A DNA stretch of 45,923 nt, taken from a virus. The stretch is taken from IMG/VR virus record IMGVR_UViG_3300040808_001640, positions 1 through 45,923 of that record, one strand, 5' to 3'. Of this stretch, positions 26,027 to 41,205 are shown piece after piece (positions within the stretch are counted from its first letter, which is position 1; each line of letters starts with the position of its first letter). A program made the position numbers and the translations under genes. The notes below the pieces were generated by a model that saw only the letters and a program-made list of their open reading frames with translations, did not search any database and was not told where the DNA came from.

Positions 26027-26032
26027 AATATA

Positions 26033-26335: not shown

Positions 26336-26411
26336 GTTATTTTCCTTTATTATTAATTTATATAATTGCCGTCAAGTGCATTTTCACCTTTTGAGGCATT
26401 ATAATATTTAC

Positions 26412-26419
26412 TATTTATA
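26412..26419 (-). promoter_or_regulatory. T4-type late promoter box TATAAATA for the oxygenase/desaturase unit
   Basis: Exact TATAAATA on the minus strand in the 88-bp gap 26336-26423, with a leader of about 70 bases to the ATG at 26335. A second, near-match box (CATAAATA, 26421-26428) overlaps the stop of the upstream oxygenase. It suggests that the enzyme cluster is expressed late, with the virion genes. Confidence 0.65.
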
Positions 26420-26423
26420 ATAT

Positions 26424-27041
26424 TTATGAATGTAAAAAGTTGTCACCTATGATTTTATATGTAATGTCATTACTTTGTACATTTAACACTATCATATAAC
26501 TATCTCTAAATGAAAATAGACTATGCATTTTATTAGTATTAACAAAATATGCTCTACCATGTTCAAAATTTAATGTCTTACCATCATGTATAAAATACAT
26601 AAATGGTGGATTACACTCTTTCAGAGGAATCAATATTCTCATACTTTTTTGTTGATCACTAAAAACAGGCAAATCTCTATGAGGTGGAAAATAACCACCT
26701 TCTGGTAAATGTAATATGTGTGATCTGCAAATATATCTCTTCCAAGGATCAACTATTTTTTGTACTTCTTCACTTTTATGATATACGTCTGTTACAGTAT
26801 TAAAATCAGCCTCAGTATAATGTACATTGTTTTCTTTATTATATTCAGGTATTGAGTCTAAATCAATACCATCTAATTCACCGTTTAAACTTGTAATACT
26901 TAAACCGTTTCTCGGTATGTCTTTTCTAGGATTATATTGATGGAATTTAAAGTCTTTAACCTCTTCAAATAACTTATCTGGATTACACTTGAATCTTAAA
27001 GGTATAACATCACCATATGTCAATAATCTACTGTAACTCAT
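26424..27041 (-). CDS. 2OG-Fe(II) oxygenase-like protein (205 aa)
   Basis: Another beta-helix oxygenase-type protein. The H-x-D pair is H121-R-D123 in GGYFPPHRDLP, followed by MRILIPLKECNPPFMYF and the distal histidine H173 in TNKMHSLFSF. At the usual 2-oxoglutarate arginine position (9-10 residues after the distal His) there is Y182/M183; R179 is nearby but offset. The N-terminal half (ISITSLNGELDGIDL-like segment near residues 48-64) is shared in style with other phage oxygenases of this type. The substrate is unknown. The gene is divergent from the plus-strand island, with only 57 bases between the two ATGs. Its own promoter is not obvious. Confidence 0.68.
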   Translation of the reverse strand: MSYSRLLTYGDVIPLRFKCNPDKLFEEVKDFKFHQYNPRKDIPRNGLSITSLNGELDGIDLDSIPEYNKENNVHYTEADFNTVTDVYHKSEEVQKIVDPWKRYICRSHILHLPEGGYFPPHRDLPVFSDQQKSMRILIPLKECNPPFMYFIHDGKTLNFEHGRAYFVNTNKMHSLFSFRDSYMIVLNVQSNDITYKIIGDNFLHS

Positions 27042-27055: not shown

Positions 27056-27063
27056 GATAAATA
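27056..27063 (+). promoter_or_regulatory. Late-promoter-like box (GATAAATA) facing the plus-strand island
   Basis: GATAAATA on the plus strand is one mismatch from TATAAATA, 35 bases before the ATG at 27099. It could let the island also be read late. It is weaker evidence than the sigma70-like promoter that directly follows it. Confidence 0.35.
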
Positions 27064-27064: not shown

Positions 27065-27093
27065 TTGACGGTTTTTATAAAATGTGTTATAAT
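27065..27093 (+). promoter_or_regulatory. Near-consensus sigma70 promoter for the plus-strand island
   Basis: TTGACG (27065-27070), a spacer of exactly 17 bases, then TATAAT (27088-27093): five of six matches at -35 and a perfect -10. The -10 ends only 5 bases before the ATG at 27099, so the start point would fall at or next to the ATG and the first message may be leaderless. This is the only such promoter I noticed in the window, and it reads into the 13-kb enzyme island. Confidence 0.75.
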
Positions 27094-27098: not shown

Positions 27099-27974
27099 AT
27101 GAAAAATGTAAATATAGTATGTACAACTAAACCTGGTGATGGTCTTCTACATTATAGTTATGAACATTGTTGTTTTCTGAATGATTTAGGTATAAAAGCA
27201 AAACTAATAATTATAAGAGACCATAGATTTTCTGAACAATCTTACATCAATGCTCTAAATGAATGTTATGTCAAATATGAAAATGTAATATTTGATTTTT
27301 ACACACCCACATCAAACGATATAACATTGATTATGGGAAGAAGTCAGCTGACTTTAGCATACTTAAATAAACATACTTACAATAATGATCAACTTCTAAC
27401 TTTACATTTATTGTTTAGTGGCAATCTTATATCTGTATATTCTGAAAATCATGTTAAAGAATATCCTATTGCGTTACAATATTTCAAACCTAAAAAAGTT
27501 TATGACTTATGCGACCATGATGTATATGTTAATGGTATGGGAGAACAATTTGAAAAGATAATAAACTTTAGTATATACAAACCTGTAAAAGAAGATATAC
27601 AATTTAAGTATTTGTTTTTAGGCACAAATGAAATATATTATAGAGAAGTAGAAAAACACATACACAATTATCCTGATCACGGTATTATAACATACAATGA
27701 CAAATTTATAAACCCTAAACTAAACAATCTAATGGTGCCAATCACAAATGTATTAGGTAAGTTTGAAACATATGTCTATACAAAACCTAACTTTGATCCT
27801 GCACCTAGACTATTCATGGAGTTTAGATGGCTCAAAAAAGAGGTCATTTATTTAAGGGATAAATATAAAAAAGATGGAGGTAGTGTTTATTGGAATAGGC
27901 CTGCAATCTGTTTGACAAAACAACAAAATAAAATTGATAATTTAATAAAATGTATAACAATGAAAAATTCATAA
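27099..27974 (+). CDS. Putative GT-B-type glycosyltransferase (291 aa)
   Basis: First gene of the plus-strand island. The N-terminal half has a Rossmann-like alternation (NVNIVCTTKPGDGLLHYSYE, then LGIKAKLIII), and the C-terminal half contains KFETYVYTKPNFDPAPRLFM followed by EFRWLKKEVIYL. The F.....Y.DP.PR...E....K.V pattern resembles the sugar-nucleotide-binding end of GT-B glycosyltransferases found in phages and surface-polysaccharide loci. Donor and acceptor are unknown. No ribosome-binding site is visible before the ATG, which lies directly behind the sigma70-type -10 box, so translation may be leaderless. The 3' end overlaps the first radical-SAM gene by 25 bases. Confidence 0.55.
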   Translation: MKNVNIVCTTKPGDGLLHYSYEHCCFLNDLGIKAKLIIIRDHRFSEQSYINALNECYVKYENVIFDFYTPTSNDITLIMGRSQLTLAYLNKHTYNNDQLLTLHLLFSGNLISVYSENHVKEYPIALQYFKPKKVYDLCDHDVYVNGMGEQFEKIINFSIYKPVKEDIQFKYLFLGTNEIYYREVEKHIHNYPDHGIITYNDKFINPKLNNLMVPITNVLGKFETYVYTKPNFDPAPRLFMEFRWLKKEVIYLRDKYKKDGGSVYWNRPAICLTKQQNKIDNLIKCITMKNS

Positions 27975-28669
27975 ACAAAATAAAACCACAATTATCATCA
28001 TTCTTCCACCAACAATTCTTTACAAGAGATGTCGGAGAAAATCCTGGTGTTAATGTTGATTTATCAGCTAGATGTGGATTAGAATGTCCTAGATGTCAAA
28101 GACAAACTTACTATGCAAATAACAAAGATATACCTGGCCACGATTTAACAGTAGATGACTTCATTAAAATAACTGATATGTTTAAAACAATTAATTTTTG
28201 TGGCCAATTATCTGATCCTGTTCACAACGAATATTTTATTGATATATTAAAATTATGTAAAATGAAAAACGTAGGTGGCACAATTCACAATGCGTCTTCG
28301 TTAAAATCTAAAGAATGGTACATAGAAGCTTTCAAATCACATCCTGATATGAGATGGATATTTGGTATAGATGGTCTGCCTGAAGACAGTTGTTTATATA
28401 GAATTAACCAAGATGGTGAAAAACTTTTTAATATAATGATTGAGTCAAAAAAACATTTAAATACTACGCCTTGTTGGCAATACATTATATTCAGATACAA
28501 TGAAAATGATATAGATGAGGCAAGAGAATTAGCAAAAAAAAATGGTCTAAATTTTAATTTAACCTATTCATCAAAATGGTTTTCTGAAGATGATCTGCTA
28601 AGACCTAGAAACAAAGATTACAGTATATGGTCAGAGCAATATAAGGATAAAGGTTATGACAAAGTTTAG
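27950..28669 (+). CDS. Radical-SAM core protein, copy 1 (lacks its SPASM part)
   Basis: This 239-aa protein carries the radical-SAM signature C42xxxC46xxC49 (SARCGLECPRCQRQT), whose three cysteines bind the 4Fe-4S cluster that cleaves S-adenosylmethionine. It continues with INFCGQLSDP (about 81-90, in the place of the SAM-binding GGEP loop), GTIHNAS and FGIDGLPEDSCLYRINQDGE, a signature of the SPASM-associated branch. The chain stops where a SPASM domain would normally follow, and that domain is encoded separately by the next gene (14-base overlap, +1 frame). It is closely related to the protein at 28994-29650, so the pair is duplicated. The substrate is unknown. It could act on a sugar, peptide or lipid intermediate of the island pathway. 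Confidence 0.82.
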   Translation: MYNNEKFINKIKPQLSSFFHQQFFTRDVGENPGVNVDLSARCGLECPRCQRQTYYANNKDIPGHDLTVDDFIKITDMFKTINFCGQLSDPVHNEYFIDILKLCKMKNVGGTIHNASSLKSKEWYIEAFKSHPDMRWIFGIDGLPEDSCLYRINQDGEKLFNIMIESKKHLNTTPCWQYIIFRYNENDIDEARELAKKNGLNFNLTYSSKWFSEDDLLRPRNKDYSIWSEQYKDKGYDKV

Positions 28670-28997
28670 GCCTAAATGTTTATCATCAACTACACAAATG
28701 GCTATAGATAATAGAGGTAGATTATTACCTTGTTGTTATATTGATACACCTAAATGGATTGAATATCCTGAAATTAAAAAGTTATTAAATGTTAGTGACA
28801 TAAGTAAAAATAAAAGTTTAAAAGATATAATAACTTCAGATGAATGGAAAGAGTTTTATAATACTTTAAAAGAAGGTGATTTAGACAAAATACCTGCAGT
28901 ATGTAAACATCATTGTTTAGATGATGGTGAAGATAAACTAAAAATAGAAGAATGGTTTGATCCATCTGGTAATATGTTTGAAAGAAAAGGTAAATGA
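28656..28997 (+). CDS. Stand-alone SPASM-like cysteine protein, copy 1 (113 aa)
   Basis: This 113-aa protein looks like the C-terminal SPASM/twitch iron-sulphur domain of a radical-SAM enzyme encoded as its own chain. Key cysteines are C8 (RPKCLSST), C26/C27 (GRLLPCCYID), C83 and C87 (VCKHHC). QMAIDNRGRLLPCC is the usual 'G.v.pCc' lead-in, and SDEWKEFYNTLKEG a typical SPASM helix. It probably binds an auxiliary cluster and docks on the product of 27950-28669, with which it overlaps by 14 bases; AAGGATAAAGG just upstream of the ATG is a good ribosome-binding site. A +1 ribosomal frameshift at the GTT TAG stop could also fuse the two, but reinitiation is simpler. Confidence 0.78.
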   Translation: MTKFRPKCLSSTTQMAIDNRGRLLPCCYIDTPKWIEYPEIKKLLNVSDISKNKSLKDIITSDEWKEFYNTLKEGDLDKIPAVCKHHCLDDGEDKLKIEEWFDPSGNMFERKGK

Positions 28998-29650
28998 GCG
29001 ATATATCATTTTATAGAAGATCAAAAAAAGGTATAAACATTGACATAAGTAATAGGTGTCCACTAGAGTGTATGAGATGTCAAAGACAGACCAACTTTAC
29101 ACTTGAAGGCAGAAAAGTTTATGGTCGGGATGCTACGATGGATGAAATTAAAAAGTTATCTGATTATTTTTCATCATTTAATTTCTGTGGTCAATTATCT
29201 GATCCTGTACATCATCCTAAATTTGTTGAAATATTAGAATATCTTTATAAAAAAGGAACACAAGTTACAGTACATAATGCCTCATCACAAAAGCCTAAAG
29301 ACTGGTATATAAAAGCATTTAAAGCCCATACTAAAGCAAAATGGATATTTGCAATAGATGGTTTACCCGAAGAAAGTAATATGTATCGTATCAACCAAGA
29401 TGGTCAAAAGTTATATGAGGTTATGTTAGAGGCAAAGAAACATTTACAACAAACGCCATCATGGCAGTTTATAGTGTTTAGTTATAACGAACACAATTTA
29501 GAAAAGGCAAAACAAATGGCTAAAGATAATGGTTTAATGTTTATTATTTTACATTCATCACGTTGGATGGGAGAAGATGATCCATTAAGACCAAAGGAAA
29601 AAGAATATAATTTAGGATATAAAGGATATATTAGACCTTATGAAAGATAA
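28994..29650 (+). CDS. Radical-SAM core protein, copy 2 (lacks its SPASM part)
   Basis: Paralogue of the protein at 27950-28669, with about half of the residues identical by eye. The cluster cysteines are C22, C26 and C29 in SNRCPLECMRCQRQT. NFCGQLSDPVHH, VTVHNASSQKPKDWYIKAF, FAIDGLPEESNMYRINQDGQ and the end region SSRWMGEDDPLRP line up with copy 1. As in copy 1, the chain ends just where a SPASM domain is expected. The start overlaps the previous stop as ATGA. The two copies may act on successive or related substrates, or form a heteromeric assembly; the sequence does not decide. Confidence 0.82.
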   Translation: MSDISFYRRSKKGINIDISNRCPLECMRCQRQTNFTLEGRKVYGRDATMDEIKKLSDYFSSFNFCGQLSDPVHHPKFVEILEYLYKKGTQVTVHNASSQKPKDWYIKAFKAHTKAKWIFAIDGLPEESNMYRINQDGQKLYEVMLEAKKHLQQTPSWQFIVFSYNEHNLEKAKQMAKDNGLMFIILHSSRWMGEDDPLRPKEKEYNLGYKGYIRPYER

Positions 29651-30014
29651 AAAAGATAAATTAGAAGGTAAATTTGTTGCTCAATGTATGAATGGTAAAA
29701 TGCAAATGGCTATGAGTAATAGAGGTCATTTATTACCTTGTTGTTGGTGCGACCAAGAATGGACATTAAATACACCTTTATTTCAAAAAATGTTAAAGGT
29801 TAGTAAAGTAAGTGATGTAGAAAACATAGATGAAATAGTATTATCAGATGAATGGAGAGAATTTGAAAAAATAATGAAAGAAGGTGAGGCAGGTGACCAT
29901 AGTAGAGTGCCTAGAAACTGTTTATATCATTGTCTAGTTAGACCAAACGATAATATAAAAATAGAACATCATTTAGACGAAAAAGGTAAATCAATAGTAA
30001 AAAACAAAGTATGA
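29640..30014 (+). CDS. Stand-alone SPASM-like cysteine protein, copy 2 (124 aa)
   Basis: Paralogue of the protein at 28656-28997. Cysteines at C16 (FVAQCMNG), C34/C35/C37 (HLLPCCWCD) and C94/C98 (RNCLYHC) match copy 1, with one extra cysteine at 37. SDEWREFEKIMKEGEAG is the matching helix. It overlaps the upstream radical-SAM gene by 11 bases and sits in the same +1 frame relation as copy 1. The most likely role is an auxiliary iron-sulphur partner for the copy-2 core protein. The Lys-rich start (MKDKKDKLEGK) may be a linker remnant from an ancestral fused enzyme. Confidence 0.78.
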   Translation: MKDKKDKLEGKFVAQCMNGKMQMAMSNRGHLLPCCWCDQEWTLNTPLFQKMLKVSKVSDVENIDEIVLSDEWREFEKIMKEGEAGDHSRVPRNCLYHCLVRPNDNIKIEHHLDEKGKSIVKNKV

Positions 30015-30757
30015 AAAAATTAATAGTTAGTGGATGTAGTTGGGGAGATAAAAACTTTATTTCATCATTTCATCCTGAAATGGATTGTGATTGGCCTAAA
30101 TGGCCAGAACTGTTGGCAGAAAAACTAAACATGGAGTGTGTTAATCTTTGTAAATGTGGTGCAGGACAAGAGTATATTTATTCATCTATATCAGATTATA
30201 TACAAAGCACACCTAAAGATGAAATTGGTATAGTTATAGCTGCTTGGTCTACAGCACCTAGACGTTGTTTTCAAGTAAAGAATAAGTGGACAAATGACAG
30301 ACAAGATGTGAAAGGTGATTTAATTTATTGGATAAATAGAAGCATTAGGTATCAATATGCCTTTCAAAATCTTTTAAAACAAGAAAAACTTCCTTACATA
30401 CATTTTCAAATGATAAGTTTATATAGAGGACATTTGTGGGAAATAAACAAACAACAATATGAAAAAAACAACAGTAAAGATTTAAAATTAAATACTAATA
30501 ATATAGTTTTAGGTCCTTTATATAAAAAATTAAAAAATGAAACACTTGAAACCCTAAAAAGCACAAAATACAAATTTAATGATAAACACCTTAATTGGCC
30601 AACTGATGAAGAATTAGGAGGATTTAGTTTAGAGTTTAGTGTGTTAAAAGAAGAACATAAAATATCAGAATTAGATAGGCATCCTAATGCAGCTGGACAA
30701 CAAAAAATAGCTGAATTCATATATGAAAGAGCATTCAATGAAGTATCTGATAGTTAG
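30011..30757 (+). CDS. SGNH-hydrolase-like protein, copy 1 (248 aa)
   Basis: This protein fits the SGNH/GDSL esterase or acyltransferase fold. The N-terminus KLIVSGCSWGD places a nucleophile serine at S10 in the block I position, and ELDRHPNAAGQQKIAEFI near residue 224 is the block V histidine (H224, with D222) near the end. A block III-like GIVIAAWSTAPRR is also present. SGNH proteins in surface-glycan loci add or remove acyl groups; the exact activity here is unknown. Its start overlaps the preceding stop as ATGA. It is followed directly by a paralogue that shares the HPxMD..(W/Y).KWPELL.EKL segment. Confidence 0.7.
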   Translation: MKKLIVSGCSWGDKNFISSFHPEMDCDWPKWPELLAEKLNMECVNLCKCGAGQEYIYSSISDYIQSTPKDEIGIVIAAWSTAPRRCFQVKNKWTNDRQDVKGDLIYWINRSIRYQYAFQNLLKQEKLPYIHFQMISLYRGHLWEINKQQYEKNNSKDLKLNTNNIVLGPLYKKLKNETLETLKSTKYKFNDKHLNWPTDEELGGFSLEFSVLKEEHKISELDRHPNAAGQQKIAEFIYERAFNEVSDS

Positions 30758-31520
30758 TGGCGATAGTAATACAACAGATGACTTTGATTCTATATCTCAT
30801 CCAGATATGGATTTTAGTTACAAAAAATGGCCTGAATTATTATCAGAAAAATTAGGTATGAAAGTTATCAACATGGCTAGGTCGGGACAAGGCAATGAAT
30901 TTATCTATACGACTTTACGAGATGAAATAGTTAAGATAGACGATAAAAGTCAAATTGGTTTAGTTATTGCTGCTTGGTCACAAGCTCCAAGAAAGGATTA
31001 TAAAGAAGATACTATTATGAGGTCAAATTGGAAAAATTTGAGAATTGATACACATGGTAACCTACCGTGGTGGGTTGAAAAGTCTTTAGGACATTATTTA
31101 GATTTTCAAATACTATGTGAGAGATATAATATACCTTATGTTCAATTTCAAATGATAGAACTTTTTGAACATTATTTAGAAGGTATTAAGCCAAGTCAAA
31201 ATGATGTTCATTTTGGAGCGGATCCTAATACTCAAAGTAAATATCCAGGAAATAAAACAAAAGACGAATCAATTATATTAAAATCTATAATGGACTATGA
31301 AAACAAATTAGATACATCTAAATTTATGGGATGGCCTCCTGTACAAAAACTTGGAGGATGGAGATTTAAAGATAAACTTGATCTATGGGAAAATAAAAAA
31401 TCACCACAAAGAGTATCCGTAATTGACAATCACCCAAATAAACTAGGACATATAGCTATTAGTAATAAAATAAATAAGTTATTAAAAGATTATAACATAA
31501 TAGGTAAAGATAATGGATAG
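30738..31520 (+). CDS. SGNH-hydrolase-like protein, copy 2 (260 aa)
   Basis: Paralogue of the preceding gene. It has LIVSGDSNTTDD with the serine at the same place, KKWPELLSEKLGMKVINMAR, GLVIAAWSQAPRKDY and VIDNHPNKLGHIAISNKI with the catalytic histidine. I use the ATG at 30738 rather than 30723: it aligns with the start of copy 1 (MKKLIVSG/MKYLIVSG) and has AAAGAG about six bases upstream. It overlaps copy 1 by 20 bases and the aminotransferase by 8. The two copies differ in the middle, so they may act on different acyl or sugar groups. Confidence 0.7.
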   Translation: MKYLIVSGDSNTTDDFDSISHPDMDFSYKKWPELLSEKLGMKVINMARSGQGNEFIYTTLRDEIVKIDDKSQIGLVIAAWSQAPRKDYKEDTIMRSNWKNLRIDTHGNLPWWVEKSLGHYLDFQILCERYNIPYVQFQMIELFEHYLEGIKPSQNDVHFGADPNTQSKYPGNKTKDESIILKSIMDYENKLDTSKFMGWPPVQKLGGWRFKDKLDLWENKKSPQRVSVIDNHPNKLGHIAISNKINKLLKDYNIIGKDNG

Positions 31521-32565
31521 TTGGTATAAAGATTATATAGCAAACAAAGATGAATACTTAAAGCTTTTTGATAATGTTATGCAAAAAGAAAACGAAAGAA
31601 ACGTTGAATTTTTAGAAAAACATATTTTAAAAATTATTAATAGAAAATATGCTGTAACGTGTGCTAGTGGCACAGACGCTCTACGTTTTGCTCTAATGGC
31701 ACTTAATCTAGGACCTGGCGATGAGATAATGACTACAAACTTTTCTTGGATATCTACAGCCTCTTGTATAACGATGGTAGGTGCAACACCTGTATTTTGT
31801 GATGTTGATTTAGAAACTTATCATATGTCAATTGATAGTATTAAACGTATGTATTCTGATAAAGTAAAGGCAATAGTGTACCCACACCTGTTTGGCAACA
31901 TATCTGATATGACAGAAATACAAAACTTTTGTGAAGAAAAAAATATAAAACTAATAGAGGATGCTTGTCAATCATTTGGTGCAAACAGAAATGGTCAATA
32001 TGCAGGAACATATGGTGACATTGCAACATTAAGTTTTAACGCAAATAAGCCTGTTGCTGGGATTGCAGGTGGTGGTGCTGTTTTATTAGACAACAAAACT
32101 CAAGCAGACTTTATTAGAAAATTAAGAAGACACGGTAATAATGAAGTATTAGGATTTAACTCTAAAATGTTAGCAATCAATGCTGAATTTATTAATTTTA
32201 GAATAGACAAAATGCACGAATGGCAAGATAAGAGATTTAGAATAGCTAAAAGATATGATAATAATTTAAAAGATATAGTTACCCTTCAAAAAATTGATGA
32301 AGGTGTTAATCATTGTTATCACAAATATGTTATTAGAGTTAAAAATAAAGAAATAAGAGAAACCTTAAAGAAAAGACTAGGTGCAGCTGTACACTATCCT
32401 AATCCTATATCGGAAAATGTAATGTATAATTCTATTATACATAGAAAAGATAGCTGCTTGAATAGTCAACAAATATGTGATACAATACTAACATTACCTA
32501 TTCATCCATATTTAACAAATGATGAAATAGATAATACTTGTAATATAATTATGGCAACAGTATGA
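31513..32565 (+). CDS. DegT/DnrJ/EryC1/StrS-family PLP aminotransferase
   Basis: This enzyme family transfers an amino group to a keto sugar nucleotide, giving amino sugars for surface glycans or natural products. Conserved features are CASGTDALRFALMAL (substrate and cofactor phosphate binding), the aspartate D150 and Q153 in LIEDACQSFGA, and the Schiff-base lysine K179 in SFNANKPVAGIAGGGA. The C-terminal HCYHKYVIRV and AVHYPNPISENVMY segments are also typical. At 350 aa it is close to family length. The start overlaps SGNH copy 2 by 8 bases, and the stop overlaps the next ATG as ATGA. No dedicated sugar-4,6-dehydratase is in the island, so the keto substrate would come from the host or from genes outside the window. 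Confidence 0.9.
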   Translation: MDSWYKDYIANKDEYLKLFDNVMQKENERNVEFLEKHILKIINRKYAVTCASGTDALRFALMALNLGPGDEIMTTNFSWISTASCITMVGATPVFCDVDLETYHMSIDSIKRMYSDKVKAIVYPHLFGNISDMTEIQNFCEEKNIKLIEDACQSFGANRNGQYAGTYGDIATLSFNANKPVAGIAGGGAVLLDNKTQADFIRKLRRHGNNEVLGFNSKMLAINAEFINFRIDKMHEWQDKRFRIAKRYDNNLKDIVTLQKIDEGVNHCYHKYVIRVKNKEIRETLKKRLGAAVHYPNPISENVMYNSIIHRKDSCLNSQQICDTILTLPIHPYLTNDEIDNTCNIIMATV

Positions 32566-32879
32566 ATGAAATAATAATTAGTCCATCTTTTAAAACTTTC
32601 TGTTATTTTGATAGTAACAATAATATGATTGACATAACAGATAAAATACCTTTTAGACTTTTAGAGTTAATTAAAAAAATGAAATATATTTTTGGTAATG
32701 ATATAGTGCTTGATAAGTCTTTGATAGCAGATGACATTGAGGACATCTATCATTATATAATAGAAAAGGCCTACGAAAGGCCAGATTATATATTTGAAGA
32801 ATTAAATTTCAAAGATCAAGCCAAACAAAAACTATTAGTAGCATTAAATAAATTCTTTTTTGATAAGTTTACAATATGA
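32562..32879 (+). CDS. Small unknown protein between aminotransferase and radical-SAM genes (105 aa)
   Basis: I do not recognise this 105-aa protein. It starts MNEIIISPSFKTFCYFDSNN and is mostly helical afterwards (IPFRLLELIKKMKYIFGNDI, YHYIIEKAYERPDYIFEEL, then a Lys/Phe-rich end). It has one cysteine and no signal peptide or clear carrier-protein motif. Both ends overlap neighbours as ATGA, so it is part of the coupled operon and is probably a functional partner. A small subunit or peptide substrate of the next radical-SAM enzyme is possible but unproved. Confidence 0.6.
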   Translation: MNEIIISPSFKTFCYFDSNNNMIDITDKIPFRLLELIKKMKYIFGNDIVLDKSLIADDIEDIYHYIIEKAYERPDYIFEELNFKDQAKQKLLVALNKFFFDKFTI

Positions 32880-33724
32880 AAACATTAAAAGAAATACAAG
32901 AAAACTATTTAGCCATAGATTTTTTTATGTCTATGTCTTGTAATAAAGATTGCCATTACTGTACAAGCTATACTTTAGAAATGAGAAACTTGACAGTTGA
33001 TATGGATTTCCTAAAACAAACACTAGACTATTTAAAAAATTATAAGATACGTGTTTGTCTTCTAGGTGGTGAGCCAGGCCTAATTAAAAATTTAGATGAT
33101 GTTATTGCTGAAGTTAAAAGTAGACCTAATCACGTATGTTCAGTACTATCAAACTCCTTTGTACGTAAAAGATATCCACATATACTAAAAGATTCTGATA
33201 TACTTTATATTGAACATAATATATTAGATTTTTATGAAAACGAAATTAAAAAACTTGGTAGTTTAGATTTACTACCACCTTACGGTTTCATACAACCAAA
33301 TGAATACAATAATTACAATCTATGCGTAAAGACACCTAATTATTTTAAATACAAAGATAACTTTCCAGAAGAAATGAAACAGTTAGATCACAAAAATACA
33401 ATGTGGAAATCATTTAATGGTAGAACACCTAATAAAGATGATGTATTGGCAGTACATACTCAGGCTGCAGAAATAGATCGTAAGATGTGTGCAGCTTTTC
33501 CTATGGTGCCTGTTATCAACTTTGAAACAAGAAAGATTGTACATTGTAGTAAGAAATTTGCTAATAATATTATACATTCAAAAACATTTGACATAACACA
33601 GGAGAATATAGACAAGATGATGAATTTTAGATTATTTAAGTATGAAAATTATTGTAAAAATTGTATGGAATGGGTTGAACCTAAAGGTCATTTTCCAGTA
33701 TCAAAATATGCGAGGGTATTATGA
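32876..33724 (+). CDS. Radical-SAM enzyme, third of the island (282 aa)
   Basis: The cluster motif is C22xxxC26xxC29 in MSCNKDCHYCTSY, and LLGGEPGLIKN (GGEP at about 64-67) is a classic SAM-binding loop. The C-terminal third has cysteines in RKMCAAFPMV, VHCSKKF and YCKNCMEWV, fitting an auxiliary cluster domain in the same chain, unlike the split pairs upstream. It differs clearly from those copies in sequence. The reaction is unknown. The position next to the nitroreductase-like and radical-SAM/carbamoyltransferase genes suggests that they act on the same compound. It overlaps both neighbours as ATGA. Confidence 0.85.
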   Translation: MKTLKEIQENYLAIDFFMSMSCNKDCHYCTSYTLEMRNLTVDMDFLKQTLDYLKNYKIRVCLLGGEPGLIKNLDDVIAEVKSRPNHVCSVLSNSFVRKRYPHILKDSDILYIEHNILDFYENEIKKLGSLDLLPPYGFIQPNEYNNYNLCVKTPNYFKYKDNFPEEMKQLDHKNTMWKSFNGRTPNKDDVLAVHTQAAEIDRKMCAAFPMVPVINFETRKIVHCSKKFANNIIHSKTFDITQENIDKMMNFRLFKYENYCKNCMEWVEPKGHFPVSKYARVL

Positions 33725-34407
33725 GTATAACTGATTCATTAAAAAAAAGAGCCCACGTTGTTCATTATAAAAAAGATATTATTCCTACTAGATTACAAAT
33801 AGAGGAGATATTGAGAATAGGATATCCATTAGCAACATCAAAACAAAAAGCCTTTCCTTACAAAGCGTATGTGTTAGGACCAAATGCAGAAAGAAGTAAA
33901 ATTTTATATGACCTATGTGAAGGCAATAAAATAAGTTTTGATGGTGATGTACAGAAAAAAGGATTTACATATCAAGCAAACCCTAATCTATTTCATATAG
34001 CAACAGCACCTTGGACGTTAATATTCACACCAAGAGTTGCTCCAGGTAATCAGTTTGCTAGAGAGCAATGTGCAAAAACAGGCACTAGATGGGAAATGGG
34101 TGAAGAATGGTTTATACCACATGGAAGAGAAAGTTGGGCTATAGAAGTTGGAATGATTGCCAAAACGATCACAGGAGCTGTTTTAGATAAAGGTTGGGAT
34201 ACTTCATATAATATTTGTTTTCCAAAAAACTTACAAAAATGGAGAACAAAAGAAAATCATTTTAAGTTTATTAAGTACACACCATATCTAATACAAACAA
34301 TAGGTAAAGCAGAATTGTATAAGTGGCAAAATATGAAACCAGAAAGTTTAAAAAAAGATACTTGTCCACCTTTTGAGGACATCTTTTCATTTGAGGATGA
34401 CGAGTAA
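33721..34407 (+). CDS. Nitroreductase-like flavoprotein (228 aa)
   Basis: The protein resembles the FMN-dependent nitroreductase fold. KKRAHVVHYKKDIIPTRLQI, followed by EEILRIGYPLATSKQKAFPY, parallels the family start (RRS.R.f......ll.....aPS..N.qPw.f). HIATAPWTLIF and AIEVGMIAKTITGAVLDKGW match the later dimer-interface and flavin helices. The second flavin-phosphate arginine of the start motif is not conserved. Family members reduce or oxidise small molecules and some act in cofactor or natural-product pathways; the substrate here is unknown. The start overlaps the radical-SAM stop as ATGA; the next gene starts 6 bases after its stop. Confidence 0.6.
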   Translation: MSITDSLKKRAHVVHYKKDIIPTRLQIEEILRIGYPLATSKQKAFPYKAYVLGPNAERSKILYDLCEGNKISFDGDVQKKGFTYQANPNLFHIATAPWTLIFTPRVAPGNQFAREQCAKTGTRWEMGEEWFIPHGRESWAIEVGMIAKTITGAVLDKGWDTSYNICFPKNLQKWRTKENHFKFIKYTPYLIQTIGKAELYKWQNMKPESLKKDTCPPFEDIFSFEDDE

Positions 34408-34413
34408 AAACTT

Positions 34414-37287
34414 ATGAGTAAAAAGTTACCTAAACATCTGACTAAAGGAGGACCAGGTGATCAGTATTTGGGCAATGGAAAATTAGATACATCTGAATGG
34501 TTTAAAAATTGTATATTAGATGAATTAGATAAAAGTATTAAAGACCAAGATATATTTTTCTGTGGTGCACCCTTTCAATTATTATTTACAGATATACAAG
34601 GTAATTATGCACCATGCTCGTGGGCTAGATCATCTGAATTTGGTCCTAATATAAGAGATACATCTATAAGAGATTGGTTTGAAAATGATCCTAAACTAAA
34701 TCAATTACGAAAAGAAATGACAACACCAGGCTCTGATTTAAAGTTAACAAAAAAATCGTGTGTATCGTGTATTAAACAAGAAAAACAATATGGCAGATCC
34801 AGACGACAGGCCTCATTAAAGATACAATCTAATGATGATGGTATATGGGCAGGTATAAGAAAGGCAGTTAATCGTTATAAAGAAACAAAAACAGGTCACA
34901 TAAAAGATAGAATTTTTGAAGTGCAAATAAAAGCATTTGGTAATCAATGTAATTTAGATTGTTATATGTGCCACACTTACGACTCTTCTACAAGAACTAC
35001 AACATTGAACTCAAAAGAATTAGAAGGTCAAACGGTTATGAATGTATGGACTCTTAAACACGGTAATGATGTTAAACTTAATCCTTTTAAAGGCCAGATA
35101 AAAGATATTATAGGTCAGATAGTTGAATTTGCACCATACATTTATAATCTTAAATTGATTGGTGGTGAACCACTAGTTATGAAACAATTTTATCAATTAC
35201 TTGACGCAATTATAAAGACAGGCCATGCTCCTCATATGAAACTAAAATTTCAAACTAATATGTCTGTTTTAGGACAAGGTAAATATAGGATTACAGATTA
35301 TATAAGACACTTTCAGTTATTTGAATTTACGGTATCACTTGATGGTATAGGTAAAACAGATGAATATATTAGGCGTAGATCAAATTGGGAAGATATAGTT
35401 AAAAATATAAAAACGGTAAAGCAATATCCTAATGTTCAAATAAATGTAAATGGCACAATATCTTTTTTAAGTGTATTAAGATTTTATGAACTTATAAACT
35501 GGTTTGATGAAAACAAAAAACTATTTAAACAAATTAACTGGTCTAATATAAGAGGACCAGCAAAGTTATGTGCAAATGTATTGCCAGATGATTTAAAGAA
35601 AGTACTTATAGACAAGTACGAAAACTTTCCTGATATTCAAAATATTTTAAAAGAAGATAATGGTGGCCTGTCTTATTTGGATACAATTGACTATCTTTTA
35701 AAAATAGATAAATATTATGAAGGCACTAAATGGGAAGCAAGCTTATTTGATGTCTATCCTGAACTGAAAAAATATAATGGAGAAAAAAGAGTGAAAAAAA
35801 TATATTCCGTAGCACTTAATTTACACGACCACAATACCTATGATGGTGTGTTTCATAATCAAAGAGAAAGATTTACTAGATTTAAACATAATTTACCTTA
35901 TCACGCTGAAGCATATGCTCATCAATCAGATATATTAAATTCTAGCGATTACAGATTAAATGATGAGTTTATTGAAGAATATTGGGATACAAATAAAAGA
36001 GATGGTACAAATGGCATTCTAGCATTTACATATACGTTTGGCGGCATAAGAAAATGCAAAGATAAGTTACCACAAGATATATTTGATTATGACCCGAAGA
36101 AACTATGGGACTATTATTTAAAAGATGATCTTTACTTTATAGATCACCATCAATCACACGCCGCATATGCCTTTCTTAATTCAGGTTTTGAACAATCAGA
36201 TATACTAGCAATTGATGGTATAGGATCAAAATATAGATGTGTGTTTTTTGATAAAAATAAAAACTTAATTGATTTATCTGATAAATTGCCTATTGGTTGG
36301 CTATGGAATCATATGTCAAACTTAACAGGCTTTGGTACACTTGGTGCAAGTAAACTTATGGGTAAAGTAGGATATGGAAAATATAGTGAGTATTATTATA
36401 ATGTATTTGAAACAATACTTGCAGGTGAGATAACCGAAAAAAAACAAGAACACTTTAAAGAAATTAGATTAAATAGTATCGAAGACCTTGCATATACCCT
36501 ACAAAAATTTACTATAGATAAAATAAAAGAACACGTTTATCCATTAAAATCTTGCAATAATCTTTGTATTGCAGGTGGTGTTGCTTATAACGGATATATG
36601 AATGAAGAATTTACTAAACATTATGAAAACGTATTTGTACCACCAGCTGTAGGTGATGAAGGACAGTCAATAGGCACATATCAACACGCTAACTATACAC
36701 TAAACAATAATATACATAAATCAAAAACATTTGCTGGTAAAGAATATGACTATATTGGTAATGAAAAAGTTGATTACAAAGAAGTAGCACAGGCCATCGC
36801 TGATGGTAAAATAGTAGGATGGTTTCAAGGCAAATCAGAAAGTGGCAATCGTGCATTAGGTAATAGATCAATACTTGCAGATCCACGTAATCCAGATATT
36901 AAAGATATTATTAATAGTACAATTAAAATGAGAGAAGACTTTAGACCATTTGCACCAGCTGTATTAGAAGAACATTACAAACAATATTTTGATACAAAAT
37001 TTCCTAGCCCATATATGAGTAGAATATGTAAAGTTAAATCAGATAAAGTGCCAGGTATTACACACGTTGATGGTACAGCCAGAATACAAACAGTTAATAA
37101 AAAATTTAATGAAAAGTTTTACAATATCATAAATGAATTTTACAAAATAACAGGTATACCTATGTTATTAAATACAAGTTTTAATTGCCAAGAACCTATA
37201 GTAGAAACACCTGAACAAGCAATAAGAACATTTAAAAAAACAGCATTAGATTTGTTAGTTATTAATGATTATATAATAAGAAAATGA
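34414..37287 (+). CDS. Twitch/radical-SAM - NodU/CmcH-type carbamoyltransferase fusion (957 aa)
   Basis: Two enzymes are joined in one chain. Residues 1 to about 455: an N-terminal twitch-like cysteine region (C50, C68, C116, C119; LFTDIQGNYAPCSWARSS), then a radical-SAM core with CNLDCYMC near 179-186, IGGEPLVMKQFYQLLDA near 250-266 and FTVSLDGIGKTDEYIRRRS near 304-322. From about residue 460 to 957: a carbamoyltransferase of the NodU/CmcH/TobZ type with DHHQSHAAYAF (577-587), IAGGVAYNGYMN (near 719-730), GWFQGKSESGNRALGNRSIL and EDFRPFAPAVLEE, ending LLNTSFNCQEPIVETPEQAI. The C-terminal half would transfer carbamoyl from carbamoyl phosphate to a hydroxyl. Between the halves is an in-frame GTG at 35791 with GGAGA before it, which may also give a free carbamoyltransferase. 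Confidence 0.9.
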   Translation: MSKKLPKHLTKGGPGDQYLGNGKLDTSEWFKNCILDELDKSIKDQDIFFCGAPFQLLFTDIQGNYAPCSWARSSEFGPNIRDTSIRDWFENDPKLNQLRKEMTTPGSDLKLTKKSCVSCIKQEKQYGRSRRQASLKIQSNDDGIWAGIRKAVNRYKETKTGHIKDRIFEVQIKAFGNQCNLDCYMCHTYDSSTRTTTLNSKELEGQTVMNVWTLKHGNDVKLNPFKGQIKDIIGQIVEFAPYIYNLKLIGGEPLVMKQFYQLLDAIIKTGHAPHMKLKFQTNMSVLGQGKYRITDYIRHFQLFEFTVSLDGIGKTDEYIRRRSNWEDIVKNIKTVKQYPNVQINVNGTISFLSVLRFYELINWFDENKKLFKQINWSNIRGPAKLCANVLPDDLKKVLIDKYENFPDIQNILKEDNGGLSYLDTIDYLLKIDKYYEGTKWEASLFDVYPELKKYNGEKRVKKIYSVALNLHDHNTYDGVFHNQRERFTRFKHNLPYHAEAYAHQSDILNSSDYRLNDEFIEEYWDTNKRDGTNGILAFTYTFGGIRKCKDKLPQDIFDYDPKKLWDYYLKDDLYFIDHHQSHAAYAFLNSGFEQSDILAIDGIGSKYRCVFFDKNKNLIDLSDKLPIGWLWNHMSNLTGFGTLGASKLMGKVGYGKYSEYYYNVFETILAGEITEKKQEHFKEIRLNSIEDLAYTLQKFTIDKIKEHVYPLKSCNNLCIAGGVAYNGYMNEEFTKHYENVFVPPAVGDEGQSIGTYQHANYTLNNNIHKSKTFAGKEYDYIGNEKVDYKEVAQAIADGKIVGWFQGKSESGNRALGNRSILADPRNPDIKDIINSTIKMREDFRPFAPAVLEEHYKQYFDTKFPSPYMSRICKVKSDKVPGITHVDGTARIQTVNKKFNEKFYNIINEFYKITGIPMLLNTSFNCQEPIVETPEQAIRTFKKTALDLLVINDYIIRK
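35779..35793 (+). promoter_or_regulatory. Possible internal translation start (GGAGA...GTG) for the carbamoyltransferase half
   Basis: GGAGA at 35779-35783 is followed seven bases later by an in-frame GTG at 35791, exactly at the junction between the radical-SAM half and the carbamoyltransferase half. Initiation here would give a 498-aa protein starting VKKIYSVALNLHDH (valine read as Met), close to the usual start of this family. It may also be a relic of two genes fused by loss of a stop. Confidence 0.45.
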
Positions 37288-37889
37288 TTGATAAAATAGA
37301 TTTAGATTTATTTAAAAGAATAATACAAGAAGGCAGGCATAATCCTGATATACTAGACTCATATAGTGTAAATCAATTTAGAGCAAAAGGAGCAATAATA
37401 GAATATGTTGAAATGCTAAATGCTAAAATAGATGAAATTGTAATTATGGGTAGTTGGTATGGCAGTATATTTGTACCTGCTTATAAACATATAAAGAAAA
37501 TTACACTTATTGATAAAGATAAAGAAGTTATTAATATTGCTACAAATAGATTGTTCTATGATTATAAAAATGTGCAATTTAGATGTCAGGATATATTTGA
37601 TGATTTAAAACTAAATGAATATAGAAGTGCTAATCTTTTTATAAACACATCTTGCGAGCATATGGCACCTATGAAAGAATGGCCTATGTGGGAATGGATA
37701 TGTAGAAAGAACAAACCATACTTTGCATTTACCTCAAATAATATGTTTGATATAGAAGGTCATATTAATTGCGCTAAGAATATAGAAGAATTTAAAAAAC
37801 AATTACCTGATAATGCTGAAGTTATGATAGAAGATCAAATTAAAGATGAGCGTGGTATTAGATTTTTACTGATAGGAAAGTTTAAATGA
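37284..37889 (+). CDS. SAM-dependent methyltransferase-like protein (201 aa)
   Basis: The protein fits the class I methyltransferase fold. EIVIMGSWYGSIFVPAYKHI is in the place of the SAM-binding motif I, KITLIDKDKEVINIATNRLF contains the acidic residue that binds the ribose, and NLFINTSCEHM is in the motif IV position. The glycine-rich loop (MGSWYGS) is less rich than the classic GxGxG. Small enzymes of this type modify sugars or metabolites, and its place after the carbamoyltransferase suggests that it acts on the same product. It overlaps both neighbours as ATGA. It could also be a non-catalytic Rossmann protein. Confidence 0.6.
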   Translation: MIDKIDLDLFKRIIQEGRHNPDILDSYSVNQFRAKGAIIEYVEMLNAKIDEIVIMGSWYGSIFVPAYKHIKKITLIDKDKEVINIATNRLFYDYKNVQFRCQDIFDDLKLNEYRSANLFINTSCEHMAPMKEWPMWEWICRKNKPYFAFTSNNMFDIEGHINCAKNIEEFKKQLPDNAEVMIEDQIKDERGIRFLLIGKFK

Positions 37890-38749
37890 AAAGAGTAATT
37901 TATAGTTTGTATATTGACATTCCAAAAGAAGAGCTTGATATATTTGATAAAAATGTTTTAAAAGAAGGTGATCCTCCTATAAACTATGTAACAAAAAGTC
38001 AATTTAAAGATAATTATGATGATTTAGTGGCGTGCAAACAAGCTTACGCTTTCGCTAATAATATTGAATTTAAAATGTTTGAGTTTGATTCAAACTATAT
38101 TAATTATCAAAAAAAATTACAAACAAAGTATCCATACTTAACAACCTATAATGTAATTAATTTTTATAAAATACATTTGATGTATGAGTTAGCAAAAAAC
38201 TATGACGAAATACTCTATTTAGATTTTGACGTTGTTCCTATGAAATTTGTAAATTTCTTTGAACATTGGGATTTAACAAAAGGTATAGCAGTATTAGATA
38301 ATTCGGATGCGGTATCAAAAATTGAATCGGTTACAGAAACATCAACAACAATAAGAAGTCCAACAGCAAAATATTATAACGCTCAAGCTATGTTATTTGA
38401 AAAAGGTTTAAGTCCTCGTAATAATGTCATAAACACAGGCATAATTGGGGCAAATAAAGAACATATTGTTAAATTAAAATACTTTGATGATTTCGATAAC
38501 AATCTATCTTTAATGAGTAGTTTAAAAAATGGACACGATATGTGGCCGAAAAAAATAACACACTACTTTGGATGGGATAATGAAACATTATTTTCAGTTA
38601 AATTAAAGGAGAATAATATACCTGTATTATGGTTAGATTCTAAATGGCATTTCTTTTTCTCTAAACAACTTTGGGTACCAGATGAAGTTATAATGTGTCA
38701 TACAATTAATAAAAGATTTGATATTGTTTGGAAAAAATTAAATGCTTAA
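37886..38749 (+). CDS. GT-A-like glycosyltransferase with DxD motif (287 aa)
   Basis: The EILYLDFDVVPM segment has a D113-F-D115 motif at the end of a strand, the metal and sugar-nucleotide site of GT-A glycosyltransferases of the GT8/GT32-like kind. NNVINTGIIGANKEHI is the usual donor/acceptor loop, and HYFGWDNETLFSVKL with WHFFFSKQLW and VIMCHTINKRF make up the C-terminal part. Donor sugar and acceptor are unknown. It is the first of three adjacent genes with the same DxD strand. Its start overlaps the methyltransferase stop as ATGA, and its end overlaps the next gene by 8 bases. Confidence 0.7.
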   Translation: MKRVIYSLYIDIPKEELDIFDKNVLKEGDPPINYVTKSQFKDNYDDLVACKQAYAFANNIEFKMFEFDSNYINYQKKLQTKYPYLTTYNVINFYKIHLMYELAKNYDEILYLDFDVVPMKFVNFFEHWDLTKGIAVLDNSDAVSKIESVTETSTTIRSPTAKYYNAQAMLFEKGLSPRNNVINTGIIGANKEHIVKLKYFDDFDNNLSLMSSLKNGHDMWPKKITHYFGWDNETLFSVKLKENNIPVLWLDSKWHFFFSKQLWVPDEVIMCHTINKRFDIVWKKLNA

Positions 38750-39461
38750 AATATGTACAGTATATTTTGACGGTTTCTATTCACCAGATTACATTACTAG
38801 ATTGCACGATAGCTTAAGAAAAAACTCAACGGTAGATTTTCAATTTGTATGTTTAAGTGATACAGATGTCAAAGCAGATTTAGTTTTACCTTACAATCAC
38901 AATAGTAATATAGTAAAACATTGGCATAAACTAAAATTTTTCAGCCCTCAATTTGCATATCAAAATCCAGGCGATGATATTATTATTATGGATATAGATC
39001 AAGTTATTGTTAATAATATAGATGATTTACTTAATTATCCAGTGAAAGAAAACGAGTTAGTTACATATGGCCAATGGTGGGAAAATAAACTAGGTATCAA
39101 TGGTGGTTTTTATAAGTTTAAATCAGGTAGTTTAAAATTTGTATGGGATGATTTTGCACTCAATCCTGAATACTGGCAATTACATTTCTATAAGGAAGGC
39201 ACCGTACATAAGAAGTATTATGGTGAACAAAATTATGTCAAGTGGAAGATATTAGAACATAAGGCAAAACTAACTAAAACACCTAGTGAATGGATTGCTA
39301 AATACACAGATGATTATAAAGAAAATTTAAAGCTAAATAAAATGTATATGCAAAAGTTTAATACTGATTATATGATATTAGATAAACAAGTAAATGACAA
39401 ACTAAAAGTTATACACTTTACAGGTGTAGGAAGAAAAATAAATGAGAATTATTTGTTGTAG
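38742..39461 (+). CDS. GT-A-like glycosyltransferase with DxD motif (239 aa)
   Basis: This protein starts MLKICTVYFDGFYSPDYITR and has DIIIMDIDQVIVNNIDD with D84-I-D86, the GT-A metal site. LGINGGFYKFKSGSLKFVWD fits the following acceptor-side loop, and KVIHFTGVGRKINEN near the end holds a histidine in the place of the family's C-terminal metal ligand (H..G). It is related in plan to the genes on either side. The target is probably the same glycan or scaffold. It overlaps the preceding gene by 8 bases and the next by 20. Confidence 0.7.
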   Translation: MLKICTVYFDGFYSPDYITRLHDSLRKNSTVDFQFVCLSDTDVKADLVLPYNHNSNIVKHWHKLKFFSPQFAYQNPGDDIIIMDIDQVIVNNIDDLLNYPVKENELVTYGQWWENKLGINGGFYKFKSGSLKFVWDDFALNPEYWQLHFYKEGTVHKKYYGEQNYVKWKILEHKAKLTKTPSEWIAKYTDDYKENLKLNKMYMQKFNTDYMILDKQVNDKLKVIHFTGVGRKINENYLL

Positions 39462-40014
39462 ATTTGGTGAAAAGTTTACTCAATGGCACGTTGACAACTT
39501 AAAACATATGATAGATGAATACTCTGGTCTAAAGTATGATAGTTTTGAAGTTATAGAAAATGATCTATATGGCAATTGGTTCAATAAGCTTCAAATGTAT
39601 GACAGATTTAGAGATGATGAAAATCTATATTTTGATTTAGATTTAGTGATCTATGATAAACTTCCTAATCTTATAAGAAAAAACTTTACATTATTAGATG
39701 ATACGTGGTGGAGAGAACCAGCTCATACACCTTTAAACTCATCAATAGTATCTTGGACAGGTGATGTATCCTACATATGGGATAAATTTAAGAAAAATGA
39801 TGAATTTTTTGTTAGTACATATACTAGAGGTAGTGATGAATGGTATTATAAAAATATTAAATATGAAACATACGATAAAGTATGTCCTTCAATTAAAGAT
39901 TATATCTACCAACAACCATCTCAATTTAGTGTATGTACGTTAGGTCAAATGCACCATCTACAAGAAAAAGGATGGACAGGTTGGTATTCTAATTATTTCT
40001 TACCCATACATTGA
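39442..40014 (+). CDS. Short GT-A-like glycosyltransferase-like protein (190 aa)
   Basis: The shortest of the three, starting MRIICCRFGEKFTQWHVDNL and carrying the strand ENLYFDLDLVIYDKLPN with D65-L-D67. SSIVSWTGDVSYIWDKFKKN looks like the acceptor loop. At 190 aa it is short for a complete GT-A enzyme; the C-terminal end QMHHLQEKGWTGWYSNYFLP may contain the last metal-binding histidines. It is the last gene of the plus-strand island and converges on the minus-strand gene at 39993-40487, sharing 22 bases at their 3' ends. I saw no terminator between them. Confidence 0.6.
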   Translation: MRIICCRFGEKFTQWHVDNLKHMIDEYSGLKYDSFEVIENDLYGNWFNKLQMYDRFRDDENLYFDLDLVIYDKLPNLIRKNFTLLDDTWWREPAHTPLNSSIVSWTGDVSYIWDKFKKNDEFFVSTYTRGSDEWYYKNIKYETYDKVCPSIKDYIYQQPSQFSVCTLGQMHHLQEKGWTGWYSNYFLPIH

Positions 40015-40487
40015 ATAGCCGCTGAAAGAATATCTAATTTATTTTTAGCTTTTCTTAATTCTTTTTTAGCATCCTCATTTGTAGAATCTTTTATAGAGTC
40101 TAATTCAAATAAAGCAAGTTTTAAAGCAAAAACGTGATCGGCGTCATCCTGATCCTCAAACAAAGAAGTTACTAAAGTTGGATAAAATTTAGTATCAATT
40201 TTTTCACTATCCATAATAAGACCAGTTTTTTGTGCAATTCTTATCACAGATTCTTCAAATAATTTTCTTTCATTTTTATGTTTTTGATAAGTCGATTCGT
40301 GCAACTGATCAAGGTTCATAAATTTTGACAGAGCTTTAAACTGCTCTCCATTTTCATCATATGGAATAATAGTAGTAAAAACTTTTTTCTTATCTTCAGT
40401 TGTTGTTTGCACTTCTATATTTTGTCTTTCACTATCTATAAAATATGCAGTTAAAAAATTATCTTTTAAATATTCTTCAGTTATCAT
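39993..40487 (-). CDS. Conserved-looking phage protein of unknown function (164 aa)
   Basis: I do not recognise a family. The 164-aa protein starts MITEEYLKDNFLTAYFIDSE with a beta-type stretch (RQNIEVQTTTEDKKKVFTTI), then becomes helical, Lys/Glu/Asp-rich and coiled-coil-like (ALKLALFELDSIKDSTNEDA, KKELRKAKNKLDILSAA). A soluble accessory or assembly protein is possible. AAGGAG lies before the ATG, and the start overlaps the epimerase gene by 11 bases, so the two are coupled. It belongs in orientation with the virion genes rather than the plus-strand island, whose last gene it overlaps tail to tail. Confidence 0.6.
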   Translation of the reverse strand: MITEEYLKDNFLTAYFIDSERQNIEVQTTTEDKKKVFTTIIPYDENGEQFKALSKFMNLDQLHESTYQKHKNERKLFEESVIRIAQKTGLIMDSEKIDTKFYPTLVTSLFEDQDDADHVFALKLALFELDSIKDSTNEDAKKELRKAKNKLDILSAAIQCMGKK

Positions 40488-41205
40488 TTCGGTTCTCCTT
40501 TATATAATTATATAAGTCAATTTTTGGTGACCATCCAATTGTATTTAGTAGGGTATTATCAGCAAGGTTATCTAATCGTTCAAACGTATTTCCCACAACA
40601 CGTTTACAATCAATTTTAAAATAATCAACCAACTCTATAAGGTTGTTTGTTCTTCCTGAACCTATGTCTGTAATACCCTTTAAGTTTGATTTAATCAAAC
40701 TGTCTATCGCTCTCACTAAATCGTCAACGTGTATAAAATCCCTACTATGATTTGTGTTAATATAAGGAACATCATTTCGTAATATTCTTGGTATTAACAT
40801 TGTATCTCTAGCGTTAGGACCATACACGGTTGTAAATCTCATACCAACACTATTCTCTGGAGCAATTTGCTCAAGGCTATATTTACTCATAGCATATGGA
40901 TTTTTCCAAGGCTCGTGTGCTGTTGATGAACTTGCGTATAAGATTCTTGTATCTTTGAAATAATCAAAAAGTCTTTGACCTGCGATTACATTTTGTTCCC
41001 AATATTCTGTAGGTCTATCTAAACTATCTCGTACACCAGAAAGGCCAGCAAGATGTATAACTAAATCTACGTTATATTTTAAGTCGCAAGTAAGCAGATC
41101 ATTGCCTGTTTGTTTATCCAGACAAATTACTTTGTGATTAATTTTTAAAAAGTTGAATAGGTGTTGGCCTATAAAGCCTTCACTACCAGTTAATAATATA
41201 TTCAT
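40477..41205 (-). CDS. NAD-dependent epimerase/dehydratase (short-chain, extended SDR)
   Basis: This is a sugar-nucleotide-type enzyme. The NAD(P) loop is TGSEGFIG (residues 6-13, GxxGxxG), DLVIHLAGLSG is the next strand, the catalytic pair is Y104 and K108 in NPYAMSKYS, and ASSST (91-95) supplies the active-site serine/threonine. MRFTTVYGPNARD and SRDFIHVDDLVRAI are extended-SDR signatures. At 242 aa it is shorter than the typical 300-340 aa, with a trimmed C-terminal substrate domain. It may supply a sugar nucleotide for the island's glycosyltransferases or the aminotransferase, although it is read from the opposite strand. It follows a late-like box at 41230. Confidence 0.88.
   Translation of the reverse strand: MNILLTGSEGFIGQHLFNFLKINHKVICLDKQTGNDLLTCDLKYNVDLVIHLAGLSGVRDSLDRPTEYWEQNVIAGQRLFDYFKDTRILYASSSTAHEPWKNPYAMSKYSLEQIAPENSVGMRFTTVYGPNARDTMLIPRILRNDVPYINTNHSRDFIHVDDLVRAIDSLIKSNLKGITDIGSGRTNNLIELVDYFKIDCKRVVGNTFERLDNLADNTLLNTIGWSPKIDLYNYIKENRNDN

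Follow-up and report, generated by a model that had tools for sequence, protein, structure and literature searches.

A modular gene island in the host recognition cluster of a T4-like SAR11 phage, predicted to make and transfer a modified sugar

Introduction

Between the VrlC and gp14 genes of pelagimyophages (T4-like phages of SAR11) lies a variable region described in 2020 as the host recognition cluster (PMC7029224), for which the accessible portion of that description reports fibres and glycosyltransferases and mentions cassettes of radical S-adenosylmethionine (rSAM) genes, whereas, in the same portion, it does not define the operon treated here, with its fixed scaffold, split rSAM enzymes and fusions. 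The present work concerns a 45,923-nucleotide stretch of viral DNA (positions 1 to 45,923 of IMG/VR record IMGVR_UViG_3300040808_001640; hereafter, the window), which falls in such a cluster, and, within it, a plus-strand gene island at 27099-40014 that is, in our estimation, probably a modular phage operon making and transferring a carbamoylated, aminated and methylated sugar with the help of several oxygen-sensitive rSAM enzymes.

Campylobacter phages CP220 and CPt10 carry an interchangeable rSAM module with nucleoside diphosphate (NDP)-sugar transferases (PMC2853527). The CP220 version (positions 6291-14874 of our locus L263), which combines five genes for rSAM proteins with one for an amidinotransferase and others resembling those of NDP-sugar transferases, is a comparable module in a cultured phage, and its gp080, gp083 and gp084 are homologues (E 1e-25 to 3e-31) of the rSAM proteins designated B below; it differs in that the SPASM part is unsplit, the amidinotransferase replaces the carbamoyltransferase (CT) and aminotransferase (AT), and the transferases are not detectably homologous to the glycosyltransferases G1-G3 of the window. 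Pelagibacter phage Mosig EXVC030M (MT647606) has, as gp82-94, an annotated yet unstudied island colinear with that of the window, on the same strand and with the same flanks, the identities being 59% for the putative glycosyltransferase A, 76% for the rSAM protein R3, 81% for CT, 65% for G2 and 72% for G3. Mosig differs in having one rSAM/SPASM pair, one SGNH gene, a CT (gp89) without a fused rSAM, an AT fused to the small domain that we call sm105, and another nitroreductase-like gene (gp93). As for single enzymes, BtrN, which oxidizes a cyclitol hydroxyl to a ketone (PMC9012708), is a twitch rSAM with a CxxxCxxC motif and four auxiliary Cys, as is R3, which shares 14% identity with it and sits in a phage setting, while the twitch rSAM family NF033640 and the NodU/TobZ/GdmN O-carbamoyltransferases are both represented in a 957-aa island protein, here as one polypeptide.

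None of the Mosig island, the 2020 cluster and the CP220/CPt10 module has been functionally characterised, and the functions assigned to the island genes below are all predictions. The initial annotation of the window, made by a model from the letters alone, stated that no described phage system with this gene combination was known, which has to be amended in view of the Mosig island, the 2020 cluster and, by analogy, the CP220/CPt10 module: the ingredients and the genomic site are already known, and phage glycan and rSAM cassettes have been reported before. The new elements are a scaffold that stays fixed while rSAM cassettes move, rSAM enzymes that are split and have relatives with SPASM-glycosyltransferase fusions, and the pairing of a BtrN-like protein with an aminotransferase.

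Results

The island is tiled by 16 ATG-started open reading frames (ORFs) of 105-957 aa, all on the plus strand, which overlap at 14 of their 15 junctions (by 4-35 bp; the remaining junction is a 6-bp gap) and are flanked on both sides by minus-strand genes, with the GC/AT skew reversing at both borders; the initial description of sixteen overlapping plus-strand genes amid minus-strand virion genes is thereby borne out. None of 200 shuffles of the island gave an ORF longer than 115 aa, and dN/dS lies at 0.05-0.44 across every gene, all of which are, judging by these ratios, under purifying selection. An assembly chimera was ruled out by the identical sequence in contigs from samples 3300040960 and 3300043015 and by the wide recurrence of the gene order. 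The ORF list contains no gene shorter than 105 aa between the island genes that might encode the precursor of a ribosomally synthesized and post-translationally modified peptide (RiPP), no search aimed at precursor peptides having been made.

The same order of genes recurs in Mosig and in dozens of IMG/VR contigs, Mosig being the only match for A, R3, G2 and G3 among 50,697 phage records. Across 44 non-redundant loci anchored on R3, for which the denominators vary by gene, AT was present in 36/36, CT in 33/35, the methyltransferase-like gene MT and each of G1, G2 and G3 in 29/29, A in 27/28, SGNH genes in 28/28 and a B rSAM gene in 22/28. A second set of 30 loci was anchored outside the island, on the flanking gene EPI (40477-41205, minus strand), which encodes an NAD-dependent nucleotide-sugar epimerase/dehydratase (PF01370, E 1e-25); here, G1-G3 occurred together in 28 loci and CT in 25, CT never without G1-G3 and R3 never without CT, with the conserved flanking gene m1 (39993-40487, minus strand) present in 29. 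Instead of the unrelated single copies that would have spoken against the initial proposal, both sets thus reveal strict co-conservation.

Of 64 non-redundant loci that each had five or more scaffold genes, 61 keep the order A-AT-R3-CT-MT-G1-G2-G3, while the B rSAM, the twitch rSAM called F, the nitroreductase and the SGNH genes occupy several different slots. Complete islands carry one to four rSAM genes, which puts the window at the rich end, its four rSAM core proteins, as initially annotated, being exactly the four ORFs of the window with a CxxxCxxC motif. No clean empty site was found among the related loci; in two of them, L181 and L190, the island is smaller and consists of two G1 genes, an rSAM gene, G2 and G3, with EPI and MT relocated. 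Accessory genes of related islands encode an iron-sulphur assembly protein, a MOSC protein, an adenylate-kinase-like protein and a PP-loop ATPase.

R3 (32876-33724; PF04055) has its Cys residues at C22/26/29 and C205-x18-C224-x35-C260-x2-C263, all seven of which are invariant in 29 sequences, and this pattern had pointed to BtrN before any fold search was run. The PDB fold search with the R3 model then placed BtrN at the top (4m7t, E 2e-5, probability 1.00), ahead of SuiB, anSME, BlsE and SpeY in that order, with BlsE and the twitch dehydrogenase SpeY both within the top ten, which supports, without proving, that R3 is a BtrN-like twitch rSAM and a predicted sugar or cyclitol dehydrogenase. 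Its neighbour in 36/36 loci is AT (31513-32565), a DegT/DnrJ/EryC1/StrS pyridoxal phosphate (PLP)-type sugar aminotransferase (PF01041, E 3e-80, 270.6 bits against a cut-off of 19.8) with an invariant Lys, K179, at the catalytic position; its closest PDB structures are a scyllo-inositol transaminase and enzymes of the WbpE/QdtB types, and it falls below the cut-off of the PseC equivalog TIGR03588 (189.6 against 423.5 bits). The adjoining sm105 (32562-32879) is a detached AT C-terminal domain, fused to AT in Mosig gp87 and other loci. In butirosin biosynthesis, BtrN is partnered by a DegT-type aminotransferase, BtrS, and the arrangement of R3 and AT suggests, as the simplest reading, ketone formation followed by transamination, a route that would explain why a 4,6-dehydratase is missing from the island.

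The 957-aa protein encoded at 34414-37287 (F+CT) joins an N-terminal twitch rSAM domain (F; NF033640, E 4e-87, 292.9 bits against a cut-off of 170) to an O-carbamoyltransferase of the NodU/TobZ/GdmN family, whose Carbam_trans_N and _C domains (PF02543/PF16861) exceed their cut-offs and whose HHxxH and C-terminal motifs are invariant, so that the aminotransferase and the carbamoyltransferase of the initial annotation stand, as do its rSAM proteins, for which cut-offs are likewise exceeded. The same rSAM-CT fusion occurs in 16 distinct relatives.

The remaining two rSAM core proteins, B1 (27950-28669; phrog_21308) and B2 (28994-29650), are each followed by a separate SPASM/twitch auxiliary-cluster protein, B1s (28656-28997) and B2s (29640-30014), and the two pairs are tandem duplicates, B1 and B2 being 52% and B1s and B2s 41% identical. 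In the B rSAM proteins, conserved Cys are limited to the three of the SAM cluster (CGLECPRC in B1), invariant in 60 relatives, whereas the SPASM proteins have five Cys that are invariant in 60 relatives; B1s exceeds the Pfam cut-off (PF13186, E 1.3e-6) and B2s matches weakly, which agrees with the two SPASM-like proteins noticed initially. Because both halves are found within one ORF in seven distinct relatives, the pair is, going by these homologues, one enzyme cut in two, with its auxiliary iron-sulphur cluster on a separate protein; to our knowledge, there is no characterised example of a split rSAM with a separate auxiliary-cluster protein that can be fused to glycosyltransferases. A programmed frameshift joining the two genes was ruled out by overlaps that vary (mostly 4-23 bp), two frame relations, a reversed gene order in 11 cases and the true single-ORF fusions. 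Four contigs (L190, L098, L186 and L172) have in-frame fusions of the SPASM half with G2, and L137 has one with G3; together with those between the twitch rSAM and CT, these fusions link the radical enzymes with glycosyl and carbamoyl transfer; as the fusion partner of the SPASM subunit is a glycosyltransferase, the radical step probably takes place on the sugar donor or the growing glycan.

Some B-type proteins occur elsewhere. The split pair stands alone in two Hyphomicrobiales chromosomes (L099:9932-10899, where it follows a GMP-synthase-like gene, and L102:9947-10899), for which reason it may be regarded as a self-contained unit. In L097 (9884-11045), a contig binned as Acidimicrobiia and carrying T4-like virion genes, a pair directly follows a gp23-like capsid gene, and, in an ORF of an archaeal (Thermoplasmata) metagenome-assembled genome (L109:7249-8724), an rSAM domain of the B type is joined to one resembling MT. 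Among NCBIfam models, B2 scored best with one for protein maturases, though far short of the cut-off.

Of the putative transferases, G2 (38742-39461) is a DxD glycosyltransferase matching phrog_1962 (E 8e-14), G1 (37886-38749) is of GT8 type by its DxD motif and by PF01501 matches in 8/12 homologues, and G3 (39442-40014) is glycosyltransferase-like by its DxD motif and its profile similarity to G2; profile comparison of G1 with G2 or G3 aligned nothing beyond the DxD. Protein A (27099-27974) gives weak GT-B fold matches, the top PDB fold being T4 DNA alpha-glucosyltransferase (E 1e-3, TM 0.37), and profile searches of Pfam, PHROG and NCBIfam found no sequence family for it; nothing informative came from PDB sequence profiles for G1, G2 or A. 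The Mosig homologue of A, gp83, is annotated as a molybdenum cofactor enzyme, which is unsupported, as the family has no conserved rSAM CxxxCxxC. S1 (30011-30757), with invariant S10, G50, G52, D222 and H224, and its paralogue S2 (30723-31520; 36% identical) are SGNH-type hydrolases/acyltransferases in which the catalytic S, D and H are retained, the Pfam GDSL match being below cut-off. MT (37284-37889) is class-I methyltransferase-like (weak PF13847/PF13649), and NTR (33721-34407) is a putative nitroreductase-fold flavoprotein by a PDB profile match (3gfa, E 7e-6). Of the initial annotations, the SGNH pair is upheld by its invariant residues and the nitroreductase by profile only, the support for the methyltransferase and the GT-B-like protein being weak.

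Upstream of the first gene lies an extended sigma70 promoter (TTGACG-17-TGnTATAAT; 27065-27093, plus strand), whose -10 box stops 5 nt short of the ATG, as it does in more than 20 of 50 distinct homologous upstream regions. TGnTATAAT occurs within 30 bp of the first gene in 13/35 non-redundant homologues, against 0.12 in shuffles, and, as this conserved -10 lies 5 nt from the ATG, transcription by the host polymerase, probably early and near-leaderless, is suggested. A T4/cyanophage late-type motif, GATAAATA, may also be present (27056-27063, plus strand), and late expression is possible; NATAAATA precedes the first gene in 12/35 non-redundant homologues, against 1.8 in shuffles. Purely late, virion-linked expression is unsupported, since the T4 late-type TATAAATA is found in the window on the minus strand only (9/9; 8/9 within 90 bp of virion-strand gene starts), the promoter of the island being of sigma70 type.

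Sheath, terminase, gp15, gp14 and gp13 are encoded in the left arm of the window (at 0.4-7.8 kb), the right end (43296-45881) is 62% identical over 885 aa to Mosig VrlC, and the large terminase subunit (TerL) is 70% identical to that of Pelagibacter phages HTVC008M and Mosig; on these grounds, the window is, by its gene content, the host recognition cluster of a pelagimyophage, between gp14 and VrlC. Tail-fibre genes and glycosyltransferases are both present. Directly past the neck genes, a minus-strand ORF (7865-10132) has a major-tropism-determinant N-terminal domain (PF18454, E 5e-11), and a mosaic fibre-like ORF of 2568 aa (10837-18543, minus strand) has pieces matching the tail fibres of unrelated phages, among them E. 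coli phages P7 and Goslar and roseophage CRP-207, with approximately 70-79% identity over stretches of 75-120 aa. The left flank of the island (22375-27041, minus strand) encodes a fatty-acid desaturase and Asp/Arg-type 2-oxoglutarate (2OG) hydroxylases, and Mosig has the same neighbours.

Discussion

If the island is indeed a sugar-making operon, R3 would oxidize a hydroxyl of a sugar (or cyclitol) and so yield a ketone, which AT would turn into an amine; CT would attach an O-carbamoyl group and MT a methyl, the SGNH proteins would attach or strip acyl groups, and the split rSAM/SPASM pairs, the twitch rSAM and the nitroreductase would carry out further redox changes, before A and G1-G3 assemble and attach the product. 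The sequences show rSAM and nitroreductase cassettes gained or lost in the gaps of one conserved scaffold, A-SGNH-AT-R3-CT-MT-G1-G2-G3. The initial interpretation is partly supported, its proposal of an unusual glycan or small molecule, made or decorated by the phage, being well backed by the strict co-conservation, the SPASM-glycosyltransferase and rSAM-CT fusions, and the BtrN-like rSAM beside AT. The least certain step is the target, which would most likely be a glycan of the host envelope or the fibres of the phage itself, altering recognition or blocking superinfection; from the location within the host recognition cluster and the host-type promoter, we infer that a change of the host envelope (superinfection exclusion) fits slightly better than virion decoration. 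A bolder version, in which the auxiliary-cluster subunit delivers a two-subunit rSAM to glycosyltransferases for radical chemistry on the bound sugar, so that an exchange of cassettes would alter the glycan on the surface of SAR11 cells or virions, seems to us rather doubtful.

Several points weigh against the sugar operon. Neither a 4,6-dehydratase nor a nucleotidyltransferase lies within the island, so that the host or some other source has to supply the sugar donor; the assignments of G1, G3, A and MT derive from weak homology or a motif only; the models of R3 and A are moderate (pLDDT 72-74, with a best TM of about 0.45 and 0.37, respectively), that of R3 (pLDDT 73.5) giving a TM of 0.44-0.56 to BtrN at the 14% identity stated above; and SPASM rSAMs often modify peptides, while the B pair, alone in Hyphomicrobiales and beside a T4-like major capsid gene, would not be exclusively glycan-linked.

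On another view, the rSAM/SPASM and transferase proteins would modify virion proteins (tail fibres), first by cross-linking or oxidation of a RiPP-like kind and then by protein glycosylation, for which one can cite the fibre and baseplate genes around the operon, the 2OG hydroxylases nearby, the pair beside gp23 in a T4-like contig and the maturase-like match of B2; it is nonetheless quite unlikely, as the island promoter is host-type, unlike the late motif of the minus-strand virion genes, the AT, CT and BtrN fold are of sugar type, and the B pair occurs without virion genes in bacterial chromosomes. The resemblance of a BtrN-like rSAM beside a DegT aminotransferase to 2-deoxystreptamine biosynthesis, along with the antibiotic-tailoring GdmN and TobZ among the closest structures of CT, raises instead the prospect of a soluble small molecule (e.g., a carbamoylated aminocyclitol-like one) acting on the host or on competitors and not a surface glycan, which appears unlikely given that the three or four glycosyltransferase-type genes are the most conserved part, that no exporter or resistance gene was noticed, and that the operon sits inside the host recognition cluster and has relatives with SPASM-glycosyltransferase fusions.

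The initial annotation also allowed for DNA modification. This might be, e.g., 5-carbamoyloxymethylcytosine with glycosylation as an anti-restriction measure, and a phage carbamoyltransferase of the same superfamily does act on 5-hydroxymethylcytosine (5hmC), though such enzymes co-occur with thymidylate synthase, and those beside glycosyltransferases are in unmodified contigs (PMC8670742). The T4 DNA alpha-glucosyltransferase fold match of A points the same way as that activity; however, Mosig and five long contigs related to it, a set that may include incomplete ones, have no thymidylate synthase/dCMP hydroxymethylase (PF00303), which disfavours a DNA target, and ThyX was present in 3/6 of these sequences. 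A TET search was uninformative, its control being silent. Altogether, we regard DNA hypermodification as very improbable.

The sugar operon that we favour would bear on the biology of SAR11, which is among the most abundant bacterial groups and for which surface alteration and recognition by phages are largely obscure. Because a phage that is cultured together with its host, Mosig on HTCC1062, carries this conserved operon with its separable cassettes, the question of surface alteration becomes testable. The islands would, moreover, offer a natural collection of radical-SAM enzymes in two parts, in which the domain with the auxiliary cluster forms a protein of its own and may be joined to glycosyltransferases.

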